A DNA stretch of 64,000 nucleotides from Rhodoplanes sp. Z2-YC6860 (GTDB lineage: Bacteria > Pseudomonadota > Alphaproteobacteria > Rhizobiales > Xanthobacteraceae): positions 7,028,029 to 7,092,028 of the forward strand of contig NZ_CP007440.1 in assembly GCF_001579845.1 (NCBI RefSeq), read 5' to 3'. Made by a program: the position numbers and the translations under genes. The stretch's first letter is position 1. Each line of letters starts with the position of its first letter. This document shows positions 16,849 through 51,228 of the stretch, in pieces. The notes beneath the pieces are model-generated. The model was not told where the DNA came from and ran no database searches. It worked only from the letters and a program-made list of their open reading frames with translations.

Positions 16849-17879
16849 TGATCAAGCCATGGGTCTTCGAGTTCTTTCCGGAGCTGGGTGGCGAGGATCG
16901 CGATCCCGATCCGCAGGACGTGGCAGCGTATTTTACGCGCTATCTCGATTTGTGGGCGCGCGACGAGGCGCTGGGATTCGAAGGCATCTTCTTCAGCGAG
17001 CACCACTTCGGCGGATCGTTCTCCGCCTCGCCAAACCTTCTGATCGCGAGCGTTGCCGCGCGGACGCGCAAGCTTCGCCTCGGGGTCATGGGCGTGGTGG
17101 TACCGTACTATCATCCCGCGCGCGTGATCGAGGAAATGGGGCTGCTGGATTATCTCACCGGCGGCCGTCTCGAACTCGGCACCGCGGTCGGCGTGCCGCA
17201 GGAGCTGGCGCGTCTTGGTCTGACCATGGATGAGGCGCGCGAGCGCAGCAACGAGATCACCGACGCGATCGATGCGGCGCTCAGCCAGCGAGTCATTTCA
17301 CACCAGGGGAAGCATTTTTCGTTTTCCAACCTGCGACTCCTGCCTCGAACGTTCCAGCGGCCGTCGCCGCCGCGATGGACTGCGGTGGTGAGTCCCGACT
17401 CCGCCCGGCGGGCCGCGCGCCGCGGCTTGAAGATTTCGACCGGTTTCAACTCCGTCGCGACGATCAAGGCGATCTTCGACGCCTACCGCGACGAAGCCAA
17501 GGCCGCAGGCTTGTCCGCCGGACCCGATTGCCTGGCGCTGCGCCGGCGCGTGACGATCGGCGCGACAACCGATCAGGCCCGGACTTGCGCCACCGCGGTG
17601 GCGGCGCGCCTGCAGTCCTATGTGGCCCAGGATTCCAGGGTCACACAGCACGTTCCGGACAGCCCGGCAAAATCCGGCAGCTTCGCGGTCAGCGACGATG
17701 AATTCATCACAGGAACGCCGAAGCAGGCCGCGTCCCAGATCGTCGAACAGTGCCGGGCCATCGGCGCCGGACATTTTCTGACAGTGCTGAACTGGGGCGC
17801 CCCGATCGATGAAGTGGAACAGGCGCACGAAACGTTCGGCCAAGAGGCGATCCCGCTGTTGCGCGCCGCCGGCGTTTGA
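16848..17879 (+). CDS. Luciferase-like (LLM class) flavin-dependent monooxygenase
   Basis: A 343-residue TIM-barrel oxidoreductase of the bacterial luciferase superfamily, using FMNH2 or F420 with oxygen. Typical features are FSEHHFGG near residue 45, LGVMGVVVPYYHPARVIEEM at about 80-100 and LTGGRLELGTAVG at about 103-115. The ATG at 16848 shares one base with the MarR stop, so it is coupled to the regulator. Substrates of the family include long-chain aldehydes, sulfonates, terpenes and aminopolycarboxylates; nothing here decides between them. A flavin reductase partner is not encoded nearby. Confidence 0.88.
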   Translation: MIKPWVFEFFPELGGEDRDPDPQDVAAYFTRYLDLWARDEALGFEGIFFSEHHFGGSFSASPNLLIASVAARTRKLRLGVMGVVVPYYHPARVIEEMGLLDYLTGGRLELGTAVGVPQELARLGLTMDEARERSNEITDAIDAALSQRVISHQGKHFSFSNLRLLPRTFQRPSPPRWTAVVSPDSARRAARRGLKISTGFNSVATIKAIFDAYRDEAKAAGLSAGPDCLALRRRVTIGATTDQARTCATAVAARLQSYVAQDSRVTQHVPDSPAKSGSFAVSDDEFITGTPKQAASQIVEQCRAIGAGHFLTVLNWGAPIDEVEQAHETFGQEAIPLLRAAGV

Positions 17880-18034
17880 TCCCGATCGGGGACTGCCAGC
17901 ACCGGCACCCGAAGATTTTTGGGTGCAATTACAGCTTTCGCCTCACCATTCGCCGTTGCGGCGCTGTCGGGCCTTTATCTTGGTCAGAGCTTGGCGCATT
18001 TTTCTTACCTGATCCAAGACCGGCACGACTTTCA

Positions 18035-20416
18035 ATGAACCACGCTCGGGGAATGAATTTACGAGGCTTCGGCCAAACGACGCAGGCCGTGAGCATCTTT
18101 ATCATTTCATTTCTCTTTTTCTTACGCTTGGCGAGACCGTTCGACTTTGGATTCATGCGTTCGGGCTTGGATCCATCTTGGGTGGCCGTTTCCACATGGG
18201 CGCGGGAATCCGGGTTGGCCTTCGGCTCCGATTTCGTGTTCACGGCGGGCCCGCTATCCAATTTTTACACTCGCTATTTTTCTTCTGCGCTGTCGATTCC
18301 CTTTGTTTTGCTATGGCTTCTTTTTGTTTCCATTGCCGCGCTCGTCCTTGCGAGGCTCCTTCTCATTGGTAAAGCGGGCTGGGGTCATTGGGCGCTCGCG
18401 CTCGCAAGCATCCTTTTGCTGAGTACGGTTGCATTCTTGGATTTCAATAGTTTGATGTTTTTCGTCTGCCTGCTGTTGGCGGTCAGTACGTTCCAGGCCC
18501 CGCGATCGAGATCGATTGAAATCCTGTTGCCATTCGTGATGGCGGCGCTTTCACTCGCAAAATTCTCGGTGTTCCCGCTTGCCGTCGTTTCCGTGGTGCT
18601 CAGCGATTTGATGCGGGTGTCCTCCCGGCAGGCCCCGTGTTCCACAATCGTTTTTGGTCTGAGTATCGTTGGGCTGTTTCTTTCGACCGGCGGGACACTG
18701 ACCGGGCTGGTCGCGTTTCTCATCTCCTATACGGAAGTGGCCGCAGGCTACACGGTGGCGATGGCCTTGAACGGCAGATTTGCCGAGGTTGCCGTGTGGG
18801 CGACGATCGCCTTGTTGTTTGTCGGCGGCGCGGCCGTCGAAGGAAAACGAACTTGGTCCGCACCCTTTGCACTTCTTTTGGCTGTGTTGGGCTTCTACCT
18901 TTTTATATGCATGAAGGCCGGTTTCGTTCGTCACGATGGGCACGGGCAGATCGCGTGGTCGGGCCTTTCCCTGGCCGCAATGATCTGGGCTGTTCGTTCT
19001 GCCGGATATGGCCATGCCCTTTGGGCTTTGCTGAACGTCGCATTTGCGATTGGCTCCGCCGATTTGGGGCACCGGTACTACGTCGATCAGAACAGATCGT
19101 ATGTCGCTCCCCCGGCTGCGGTTCTGGCACAGGTGTTGACACAGGCGAACGCCGGGCTCGAGTTGATCCGGTCACCGGCCGCATGGTTGAGTGCGCGGCA
19201 GGCGCGCCAAGCCAGCGCAGTCGAAGCCGTGAAGGCGGCGAAACCGTTGCCCGCGCTCGCAGGCACTGTCGATATCCTTCCATCGGCCCAAGCCGAGGTC
19301 ATCGCGAACGGATTGAACTATCGTCCGCGCCCCACCGTACAGGAATACAACACCTATTCTCAGCCTCTGATTGCGCGCAACCGCGCCTTCTTCAGCGGCG
19401 ATCGAGCGCCGGATTATTTTCTGTTCCAACCAGGCTCCATTGATGGACGACATCCGGCTTCGGCCGAAGGACCGCTCTGGCCATTGTTTCTGACGCGGTA
19501 TGAAACCTCGGATTGGACACAGGACTATTTGCTGCTCAAACGCCGCGACGTCGCGCTTCAATCGATCTTGAATGACAGCGTGGATATCCAGGGCAGTTTC
19601 GAAGAAGCGGTTGCGTTTCCTCGGCGCGGACAGCCGGAATTTGTGTCGATCGACGTACGGCCGAATTTGATAGGCCGTCTGGCCGCGATTTTGTTGAAGC
19701 TACCCGAACTGAATTTGGAACTTACTTTTTCGGACGGAGCGCAAAGCCGCTATCGTCTGATCCCGGACATTCATCGCGAAGGTGTGCTTCTCTCGCCGAC
19801 AGTGAACAGTGTCGCGGACTACGCCAACCTGGCGAACGGCATATTGGCTGATTTTCCGCCAAGTTCGTGGCCTGTTGCCATTCGTGTGACCGGCTCCGCG
19901 GGCTATTCATATTTCTATGATCGTTCGATTCGATTTCGTTTTGCCTCGCTTGACCTCGAACCTCTGAGACGGGCGGCGACCGGAACCCGCTTTCTGGACA
20001 GCCTGAACGATCGAATGGAAGATCTGCGTGCCGCCAAGTCCCGGCTGAAACCCAACCCTCCTTATCTTGTTGATTCACCGGAAGGCATCTTCGCGCATGC
20101 GCCTTCTGAGATCGCGGTTGCGACGGAGGGGGCTACCCGGGTGCGGCTTGGATTCGGGATTCGCGCGGGGGCCTATGACAGCGGAGACACCGACGGCGTA
20201 TGCTTCAGTGTGAGGCTGCCAGGCGCCGGCGGTGTTCTCTTCGAGCGATGTCTTGATCCAAAGACGACAGCAAAGGATCGCGGCATCGTCGAAGCCACGG
20301 TGGACTTGCCGGCCGGCACGAATGAGGTCATCGCCGCAACCAGTTGCCGGTCGAATTGCAATTGGGACTGGTCATTCTGGACCAGAATTCGCCCGGAACC
20401 ATCGACCACACCTTGA
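18035..20416 (+). CDS. Large polytopic membrane protein of unknown function
   Basis: A 793-residue protein. The N-terminal half (about residues 12-380) has roughly ten hydrophobic helices, e.g. VSIFIISFLFFLRLA and FVLLWLLFVSIAALVLARLLL. The C-terminal half is soluble and reads like an extracytoplasmic beta-rich domain. The plan resembles GT-C-type or O-antigen-ligase-type membrane enzymes, but no catalytic motif was recognised. ATG 18035 was chosen because it begins just ahead of the first helix; an ATG at 18053 is an alternative and the in-frame region before 18035 is not protein-like. Codon use is rich in TTT, TTG, ATT and the GC content is visibly lower than in neighbours, a sign of recent acquisition. 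No partner genes adjoin it. Confidence 0.7.
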   Translation: MNHARGMNLRGFGQTTQAVSIFIISFLFFLRLARPFDFGFMRSGLDPSWVAVSTWARESGLAFGSDFVFTAGPLSNFYTRYFSSALSIPFVLLWLLFVSIAALVLARLLLIGKAGWGHWALALASILLLSTVAFLDFNSLMFFVCLLLAVSTFQAPRSRSIEILLPFVMAALSLAKFSVFPLAVVSVVLSDLMRVSSRQAPCSTIVFGLSIVGLFLSTGGTLTGLVAFLISYTEVAAGYTVAMALNGRFAEVAVWATIALLFVGGAAVEGKRTWSAPFALLLAVLGFYLFICMKAGFVRHDGHGQIAWSGLSLAAMIWAVRSAGYGHALWALLNVAFAIGSADLGHRYYVDQNRSYVAPPAAVLAQVLTQANAGLELIRSPAAWLSARQARQASAVEAVKAAKPLPALAGTVDILPSAQAEVIANGLNYRPRPTVQEYNTYSQPLIARNRAFFSGDRAPDYFLFQPGSIDGRHPASAEGPLWPLFLTRYETSDWTQDYLLLKRRDVALQSILNDSVDIQGSFEEAVAFPRRGQPEFVSIDVRPNLIGRLAAILLKLPELNLELTFSDGAQSRYRLIPDIHREGVLLSPTVNSVADYANLANGILADFPPSSWPVAIRVTGSAGYSYFYDRSIRFRFASLDLEPLRRAATGTRFLDSLNDRMEDLRAAKSRLKPNPPYLVDSPEGIFAHAPSEIAVATEGATRVRLGFGIRAGAYDSGDTDGVCFSVRLPGAGGVLFERCLDPKTTAKDRGIVEATVDLPAGTNEVIAATSCRSNCNWDWSFWTRIRPEPSTTP

Positions 20417-21015
20417 GCGGCCGAATTGACCGCTCGATGCATGAAGGCGACCGCAGCCACCGTTGTGATCGGAAGGCGCGGATTGTCTCTGCCGTTGACG
20501 CACGAAAATGTTCATGTTATGTGTTGGCTTGCCTTGCTCGTTGAGGGCGTCGACTAGGGACGTCTATTTGGCGGAGCAGGGTGTGGCGCCTGCAGACGTG
20601 GCCCGTAACCACGTCCCAGGGTGCGATGCCATCGTCCGTCCCCGATGAGGGGGCCGCCTTCAGTGGCAGGGCGCGATCGGGTGAAGGGCCAAGGCAACGC
20701 GGCCTTAGGTGAAGGGTTCGTCCCGCACCGTCCGATCGAATCTCGAACGGCGGTATCGCAATAAATCGCCGCGGTGGAGCGCCGGAAGGCGCGCCTGCCC
20801 TCGCAAGGGCGGGCGGGGTGCCTTCGCAAGGTGCCCCAGTGAGACCTGCGCCGTTTCGGCGCTCCGCCTCCCTCAGGGAGGCATGAAAGAAACCGGGCCA
20901 GGCCCGGAAAACCGACAGGGAAATCTGGCGATCCGCGCGATCCATCGCGTGGAGCCGAGGACGCATGTCTGCATGACAACAAAATATGCAAAGTGCGTGA
21001 CGTTCTCTCCACACG
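20417..21015. other. Gene-free region with a tandem run of short hairpins
   Basis: About 600 bp without a convincing gene; open frames on both strands have protein-unlike Arg/Pro/Gly composition. From 20595 it carries closely packed perfect stems: GACGTGG/CCACGTC (20595-20615), GCGCC/GGCGC (20779-20792), GCCCT/AGGGC (20797-20810), a 10-bp stem with two G-U pairs (20815-20837), GCGCCG/CGGCGC (20848-20862), GCCTCCC/GGGAGGC (20866-20882) and CCGGGCC/GGCCCGG (20893-20907). This may be a structured RNA or a dispersed repeat. The stretch 20417-20590 shows nothing. Confidence 0.6.
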
Positions 21016-21151
21016 GTCATTCCGGGGCGCGCCCATCAGCGCGTTTACGCGCGTCTTCGACGCGCTATGGGCGCGAACCCGGAATCCAGACAAGCAGGCG
21101 TTTTCTCCAGAACTGGATTCCGGATCGCCGCTTCGCGGCAGCCGGAATGAC
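21016..21151. repeat. Cloverleaf-like palindromic repeat, copy B (136 bp)
   Basis: The same plan as copy A (9387-9494): outer GTCATTCCGG/CCGGAATGAC, a long ACCCGGAATCCAG/CTGGATTCCGG arm and a GCCGC-TTC-GCGGC hairpin. The first arm is enlarged: GCGCCCAT pairs with ATGGGCGC and encloses a nested AGCGCG/CGCGCT stem. It sits 35 bp beyond the stop of the minus-strand thiolase gene. Confidence 0.85.
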
Positions 21152-21186
21152 GACGGAGTTTGCCGATGCAACGTCGGATGAACGAG

Positions 21187-51151: not shown

Positions 51152-51228
51152 TGGTACAGGAGGGTGGATTTGAACCACCGACCTCTGGTTCCACAGACCA
51201 GCGCTCTAACCAACTGAGCTACTCCTGC
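51152..51228 (-). tRNA. tRNA-His (anticodon GTG), CCA encoded
   Basis: A complete cloverleaf on the minus strand: acceptor GCAGGAG/CTCCTGT, D arm GCTC...GAGC, anticodon stem CTGGT/ACCAG with loop CTGTGGA (anticodon GTG), T arm GGTGG/CCACC, discriminator A73 and encoded CCA. The base before position 1 is C and the discriminator is A, so the usual tRNA-His identity pair G-1:C73 is missing, a feature described for a large alphaproteobacterial clade. Confidence 0.97.

Follow-up and report, generated by a model that had tools for sequence, protein, structure and literature searches.

What does a tight cluster of short hairpins in a bacterial genome encode? We were interested in such a cluster at 20779-20907 of a 64,000-nucleotide stretch of DNA from Rhodoplanes sp. 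Z2-YC6860 (the window), which covers positions 7028029-7092028 of the host genome (G000), a single contig of 8,193,889 bases. The original prediction, made from the letters, described a tandem array of perfect hairpins and suggested a structured non-coding RNA (ncRNA) read from the plus strand, or a dispersed element. Sequence comparison identifies it as one member of a family of structured ncRNA genes for which we found no earlier description. The copy occupies window 20495-20889 and comprises a promoter-like sequence followed by a predicted plus-strand RNA of about 360 nt.

Fold and covariation of the element

The segment 20779-20907 contains five perfect stems (at least 5 bp, loop of 1-7 nt), compared with a mean of 1.6 in dinucleotide shuffles of the same segment. 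Five stems were reached in 1 of 500 shuffles and the total stem length in none of the 500, and the stem count was equalled by none of the 496 consecutive 129-nt stretches of the 64-kb window, which confirms the dense packing. A sixth stem at 20815-20837 (GGGGTGCC/GGTGCCCC) requires two G-U pairs and forms on the plus strand only, as had been proposed, and the hairpin at 20595-20615 and the palindrome CGCGATCCATCGCG at 20936-20949 are both present as described. For 20525-20885, the folding energy of the plus strand is -201.7 kcal/mol (z -5.5), a value reached by none of 100 shuffles; the minus strand gives -165 (z -2.2), with 1 of 100 shuffles as low. The hairpins are thus real, but "tandem array" is too weak a label, since they belong to one multi-branched fold beginning at about 20531, in which a longer stem pairing 20773-20787 with 20854-20868 competes against the hairpins 20779-20792 and 20848-20862.

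We aligned 29 full-length sequences from several genera (alignment A3), out of 43 non-redundant ones (103 prior to the removal of near-duplicates). The 14 sequences omitted by eye were L073, in which the reference overruns the contig, the doubtful L172, and others that were divergent or resembled kept ones. Alignment A2 held 32 of 53 sequences, and A1 held 28 of 65 matches after the removal of near-duplicates, false matches and sequences cut by locus ends. Among the 61 base pairs of A3, 37 show two-sided changes. Pairing is possible in 93.3% of cells, versus 82% in 500 column shuffles, none of which came up to it, and 43-48% with slid partners; double-change cells number 216, versus 74 in shuffled and 28-58 in slid versions. 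Because the structure was derived from the same alignment, it is favoured over its slid versions. As a check for bias, all omitted sequences except L073 and L172 were added with the columns fixed, and 598 of 671 cells in these 12 sequences pair (89.1%), versus 38-49% when slid.

At least one pair is changed on both sides in 10 of the 13 helices, and in none of the pairs of the remaining three. The 5' stem P1 has two-sided changes in eight of nine pairs; the long-range helix GCGGCG/CGCCGC is paired in 98.9% of cells over the 29 sequences, with such changes in two of six pairs. Read by eye, the 3' domain consists of a long stem with one to four arms, whose sequence varies while pairing is kept, and in distant families its core stem reads GGAGCGCCG, GGCGCGCCG, GGGGCGCCG or GAAGCGCCG, with the complement changing in step. 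No start codon or reading frame was seen to be kept across the sequences: starts that share a column in A3 lead into frames of widely differing length, and the tails of host copies interrupt reading frames. What is conserved is a predicted structured plus-strand RNA behind promoter-like DNA, and covariation across genera together with the strand-specific fold energy supports the plus-strand ncRNA originally suggested.

The extent first assigned to the element was too small. The unit begins with the -35-like box (20495), near which the homology with several other copies starts, and reaches at least the hairpin at 20866-20882; homology with two other copies extends to 21033. A full copy consists of the promoter-like sequence, the multi-domain RNA of about 360 nt and, in 27 of 41 host copies examined, an rRNA-type boxA located about 90 nt past the 3' domain, often preceded by a boxB-like small hairpin. 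The tail of the window copy holds a boxA remnant at most (about 20966-20990). The features of the window copy are collected in Table 1.

Table 1. Features of the window copy (window coordinates)
Feature	Position	Strand	Details
Promoter-like sequence	20495-20523	+	-35 TTGACG 20495-20500, 17-nt spacer, weak -10 TATGTG 20518-20523
5' stem P1 with inner hairpin P2	20531-20582	+	P1 20531-20539/20574-20582; P2 20546-20552/20558-20565
Large multi-branch domain	20583-20772	+	Closed by long-range helix GTGGCG 20583-20588 / CGCCGC 20767-20772
Arm with 7-nt loop	20596-20614	+	Loop CCCGTAA here, CUCGYAA in many relatives; two-sided changes in 6/6 pairs
Arm with ACUACG-like loop in many relatives	20638-20654	+	Two-sided changes in 6/6 pairs
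3' domain	20773-20868	+	Long stem GGTGGAGCGCCG...CGGCGCTCCGCC; variable arms here 20797-20810, 20815-20837
Closing hairpin GCCTCCCTCAGGGAGGC	20866-20882	+	
3' tail of the repeat	20893-20990	+	In many host copies small hairpin and rrn-type boxA GGCTGTTTGANANNTGAATC
Perfect stems in the cluster	20779-20792, 20797-20810, 20848-20862, 20866-20882, 20893-20907		

Copies, possible mobility and spacing

A blastn search of the host genome with 20560-20960 showed the segment to be a repeat found in at least 40 places (40 of 89 candidates were scored, all matching). Covariance models of the 5' domain (R2) and the 3' domain (R1) matched 51 and 52 places, respectively, in host searches that scored 150 of 8152 and 150 of 17662 first-look candidates. 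An R1 match follows 49 of the 51 R2 matches at 122-138 nt; the two unpaired ones are a fragment and a copy split by an island, the other half of which is an R1-only match. Three short-form copies without the middle domain, two found by R1 only and one via boxA, bring the total to about 54. The suggestion of a dispersed element is therefore supported, with about 50 host copies. None of 78 elements overlaps a predicted gene (home-made gene finder).

Some copies depart from the common architecture. The middle domain is absent by eye from a short subfamily (L145, L136 and L243 in the host; L070, L082, L091 and L099 in others), which keeps the 3' stem with large arms and includes some members with promoter-like sequence and boxA. 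At L063:4632-4840 (minus strand), an arm of the 3' domain apparently holds another palindromic repeat and is lengthened, not broken. The island-split host copy (L242, G000:C1:1968250-1988240) is interrupted within an RNA arm by about 19 kb bearing the direct repeat CCCCGATGAGGG at both ends and matches to DUF5906 and ATP-dependent DNA ligase; RNA genes of the element family may thus serve as integration sites.

Among 40 other genomes of the family sampled, with 93 candidates scored in each, R2 matched in 26 (1-19 copies each) and not in 14; R2-positive genera numbered 26 of 40, the host genus counted. A pattern scan of named genomes returned 67 stretches, mostly from Rhodoplanes, Pseudorhodoplanes, Pseudolabrys, Rhodopseudomonas, Afipia and other Hyphomicrobiales or Xanthobacteraceae, plus three likely chance or misbinned records. 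Culturable strains with copies include Rhodopseudomonas rhenobacensis DSM 12706 and Rhodoplanes elegans DSM 11907 (loci L068 and L072). Order-wide samples, which include other families and the host, gave lower bounds of 9 of 297 genomes for R1 (11 candidates scored each) and 6 of 120 for R2 (31 each), and the copies from other families show the same anatomy by eye. In a class-wide sample of 143, the host was the sole match (26 candidates scored each). We rejected a plasmid- or phage-borne element, as blastn with the window copy found no match in 72,556 plasmid or 50,697 phage records. One pattern match in a viral contig (L211) lacks the rest of the element by eye and was read as chance.

One pair of host copies shares 98.4% identity along a 504-bp segment that opens 7 nt ahead of the -35-like box and closes 2 nt beyond boxA; outside this segment the two are unrelated. 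In a pairwise comparison of 34 host copies, alignments tend to end at the promoter, immediately behind it, ahead of the 3' domain, behind the last hairpin or past boxA, so that modules seem to have been exchanged between copies. Of 10 other genomes of the same genus, 9 yielded the thiolase gene that adjoins the window copy, and the element was absent by R1, R2 or eye from all nine orthologous loci; the window site is therefore either rearranged or inserted. At seven of the nine loci a predicted gene, which by eye resembles an ABC transporter gene, ends at a distance of 0-20 nt. In the window, an 846-codon open frame (17876-20416, plus strand; no Pfam match at E 0.01) lies just upstream, at the place where seven of nine same-genus relatives have another gene. 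Because the upstream gene differs too, the comparison does not single out an insertion of the element alone.

The host copies keep apart from one another, with no gap under 40 kb where about 12 would be expected. The smallest gap among the 51 R2 matches is 40,170 bp, where about 11 gaps under 40 kb would be expected at random, and none of 20,000 simulations gave so large a minimum. With all 54 units, neighbours are 40-492 kb apart on 8.19 Mb (coefficient of variation 0.58); this evenness was reached in 2 of 200,000 random placements and the minimum in none. The minimum is 47 kb for the 22 inverted pairs of neighbours and 40 kb for the 31 direct ones. With replication direction judged from GC skew in 20 samples, 35 of 51 copies are co-directional with replication (p 0.01; 0.002-0.024 with two alternative origin-terminus assignments), or 36 of 54 (p 0.02; 0.004-0.04). 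The spacing test is weak in genomes other than the host: in G034, the closest of 15 of 17 listed copies lie about 40.6 kb apart within contigs, a distance compatible with chance, and in G041 the members of one inverted pair are separated by about 9.8 kb.

Promoter-like sequence, LexA box and boxA

In the alignment of host copies, homology begins at the promoter-like sequence. Two host types, TTGAC/TAAGTT and TTTGCA/TAGACG, are each spaced by 17 nt, and other genera often have TTGACA and TATATT at the same position. A loose sigma70 pattern (TTGACA-16/18-TATAAT) matched in -75..0 in 17 of 48 promoters outside the host versus 2 of 48 in the control stretch, counting rows that are false matches by eye (L068 on the minus strand, the first of L079, L097 on the plus strand, L161 and L172). 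The commoner host type, TTTGCATTTnCGCAAATCACGwGTAGACG (e.g., L006, L016), contains a conserved imperfect inverted repeat, TTTGC...GCAAA, possibly the site of a regulator other than LexA. Promoters in other genera (e.g., L186, L115, L050, L210) carry palindromes such as TCCTATAGGA or ATCCTAGGAT between -35 and -10, which are possibly operators. A second upstream type, CTTATCCCCGCCC...CCTTACAAT, was seen in L155, L171 and L187.

The direct repeat GTTC-N7-GTTC is described in PMC3323433 as the LexA box of alphaproteobacteria. It overlaps 10 of 35 host promoters in three registers and occurs in none of the 35 between -400 and -75. Eight share one homologous register; L015 and L124 have it at other positions, which is hardly chance given its absence from the 325 nt upstream. 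A degenerate GTTC-N7-GTGT starts at 20510 in the window copy, with a single half-site intact. As a family-wide trait the LexA box is unsupported, its frequency outside the host being that of the control.

The boxA pattern GGCTGTTTGANANNTGAATC occurs 27 times in the host genome and never in the reversed control: 25 occurrences follow an R1 match at a distance of 80-121 nt, one lies at a short-form copy (by eye) and one in the leader of the rRNA operon (rrn), 219 nt upstream of the sole 16S match (C1:1423287-1424771). With up to four mismatches allowed, 27 of 41 host tails contain boxA and 8 of 49 tails from elsewhere do, versus 0 of 90 for either control stretch, so that boxA was rejected as a family-wide trait. 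Directly 5' of boxA, many host copies have a small hairpin with a changing stem (by eye), and the boxB-boxA order is described for rrn leaders in passages of PMC10250234. The window copy has no boxA match. Directly after the element, at window 21014-21160, lies a palindromic repeat of the Br-REP kind (TCATTCCGGGG...CCGGAATCCAG...), and one of three repeat types of this kind occurs just downstream of boxA in many of the 27 host copies listed.

Known families and possible roles

At gathering thresholds, Rfam 15 detected tRNA only in the whole window, where a tRNA gene lies at 51155-51228 (minus strand). Relaxed searches of 13 copy-bearing loci, with an E limit of 5 for 6 of them and of 3 for the other 7, produced five weak matches, all far below gathering score. 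We therefore rejected a known Rfam RNA, in line with the original prediction, which could name no family. OLE, GOLLD, ROOL and HEARO/omega RNA are large structured bacterial RNAs of unclear function, some of them multicopy and mobile (HEARO). The element is likewise large and strongly covarying; unlike them, it has no Rfam match (including HEARO, the IscB/TnpB omega RNA, whose model is in the Rfam library), no partner gene that we found (no search of the neighbours was aimed at IscB or TnpB), and no guide-like variable 5' segment that we saw. LexA-controlled type I toxin mRNAs such as tisB are structured and SOS-controlled, and some type I systems are multicopy, but no small reading frame is conserved across the element copies, for which reason a type I toxin mRNA was rejected.

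Many host copies resemble an rRNA operon leader in having a promoter-like sequence and, further on, a small hairpin and boxA; the 16S leader of the host matches the same boxA pattern as these copies, not the window copy. The element differs in that no rRNA follows and a structured RNA of about 360 nt separates promoter and boxA. Br-REP1 and Br-REP2 are Bradyrhizobium repeats with consensus hairpins of about 20-40 nt, seen in transcripts, according to PMC5082802. They share with the element a dispersed, intergenic and palindromic nature in related bacteria, but the element is about 400-500 bp long, multi-domain and equipped with its own promoter-like sequence. The Br-REP1/Br-REP2 consensus given there was not seen by eye in 20495-20990; an 11-nt Br-REP2-like piece, TCATTCCGGGG, adjoins the element at 21017-21027. 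A literature search by titles and abstract openings, and by passages of PMC5082802, PMC4842269, PMC2267715, PMC3323433 and PMC10250234, returned no earlier description of the element.

We consider the chances about even that the copies represent a new structured-RNA family spreading as a non-autonomous mobile transcription unit, with an RNA core and little insertion close to copies already present. Transcription would begin a short way past the -10 box, and the resulting plus-strand RNA would fold into three parts: the 5' stem, the multi-branch domain with its closing helix, and the long stem of the 3' domain. BoxA could load Nus antitermination factors as in the rRNA leader, and in some copies LexA may hold the promoter off until DNA damage occurs. 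The unit would move as DNA into new intergenic sites, and this mode of spread is why we read it as a non-autonomous mobile element. The structured RNA might form its functional core, either as a scaffold for a mobility protein or as a ribonucleoprotein favouring its own upkeep, and something like target immunity, or selection on spacing, may limit spread near an existing copy.

Several observations weigh against this proposal. No target-site duplication was found at 25 copies (mean longest match of 2.48 nt versus 2.24 shuffled), though old copies could have lost theirs, nor did we identify a mover such as a transposase or reverse transcriptase. A purely selfish repeat would have no need of a structure conserved across families, unless its RNA takes part in spreading it. 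The loose sigma70 pattern matched in none of 35 host promoters (L136, a false match, is among these rows) versus 1 of 35 in the control stretch, so that the case for the host promoters comes from their conservation and spacing. GTTC-N7-GTTC is not enriched outside the host (1 of 48 both there and in the control), 41 of the 49 tails outside the host gave no boxA versus the 27 of 41 host tails with it, and neither an intact LexA box nor an intact boxA is present in the window copy.

The element might instead be an RNA serving the host, with copies giving dosage and U-turn-like loops (CUCGYAA, GAUCGCAA) on covarying arms titrating a protein, as CsrB-type sponge RNAs do. The loop of the P5 arm is largely kept while the surrounding stem changes, many of the one to four arms in the variable regions show a similar loop by eye, and some promoters look regulated. 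The family genomes without a match, a window site not common to relatives, the absence of the loop from some arms and the lack of a candidate protein make this role unlikely. If the element acted in cis, as a portable promoter and antiterminator driving transcription into neighbouring DNA, it would be clear why many host copies begin with promoter-like sequence and finish with an rrn-type boxA, and a few copies (e.g., L002) do precede a co-directional gene. However, the next predicted gene lies on the opposite strand in 24 of 31 host copies with one called, which also disfavours a leader of downstream genes in the host, and no fixed gene arrangement was seen in other genomes (both by the home-made gene finder). 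BoxA, moreover, went unfound in 41 of 49 tails outside the host, and we find a role in cis distinctly improbable. We give very little credence to an accidentally transcribed DNA-level repeat of the REP (repetitive extragenic palindromic) or MITE (miniature inverted-repeat transposable element) kind: the element is dispersed, intergenic and often beside other palindromic repeats, but compensatory changes, many via G-U pairs, and the plus-strand-specific fold energy argue for selection on RNA, and the lack of target duplications holds here as well.

The spacing itself might be a by-product of recombination losing close pairs, which is compatible with any of the other readings and which we regard as possible, if rather doubtful. 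The copies in the host resemble one another closely enough for recombination, and modules seem to have been swapped between them, but inverted neighbours, which would not be deleted, are equally far apart, so that deletion between repeats is not the whole answer. More speculatively, and with small probability in our estimate, the copies could be architectural: evenly spaced, mostly leading-strand, rRNA-like units that are transcribed with antitermination and without translation and so mark or insulate chromosome domains, the RNA acting as an anchor and the even spacing being that of the host. Chromosome interaction domains in other bacteria have a reported spacing of similar order to that of the host copies.

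To our knowledge, large multi-domain structured bacterial RNAs are few, and this element occurs in several families of its order. An RNA gene with a frequent rRNA antiterminator, an occasional DNA-damage switch and a spacing of at least 40 kb in the host would join ncRNA, mobile DNA and chromosome layout, three subjects usually treated separately, and with the element one can test directly if the spread of a bacterial repeat can be driven or kept in check by an RNA.
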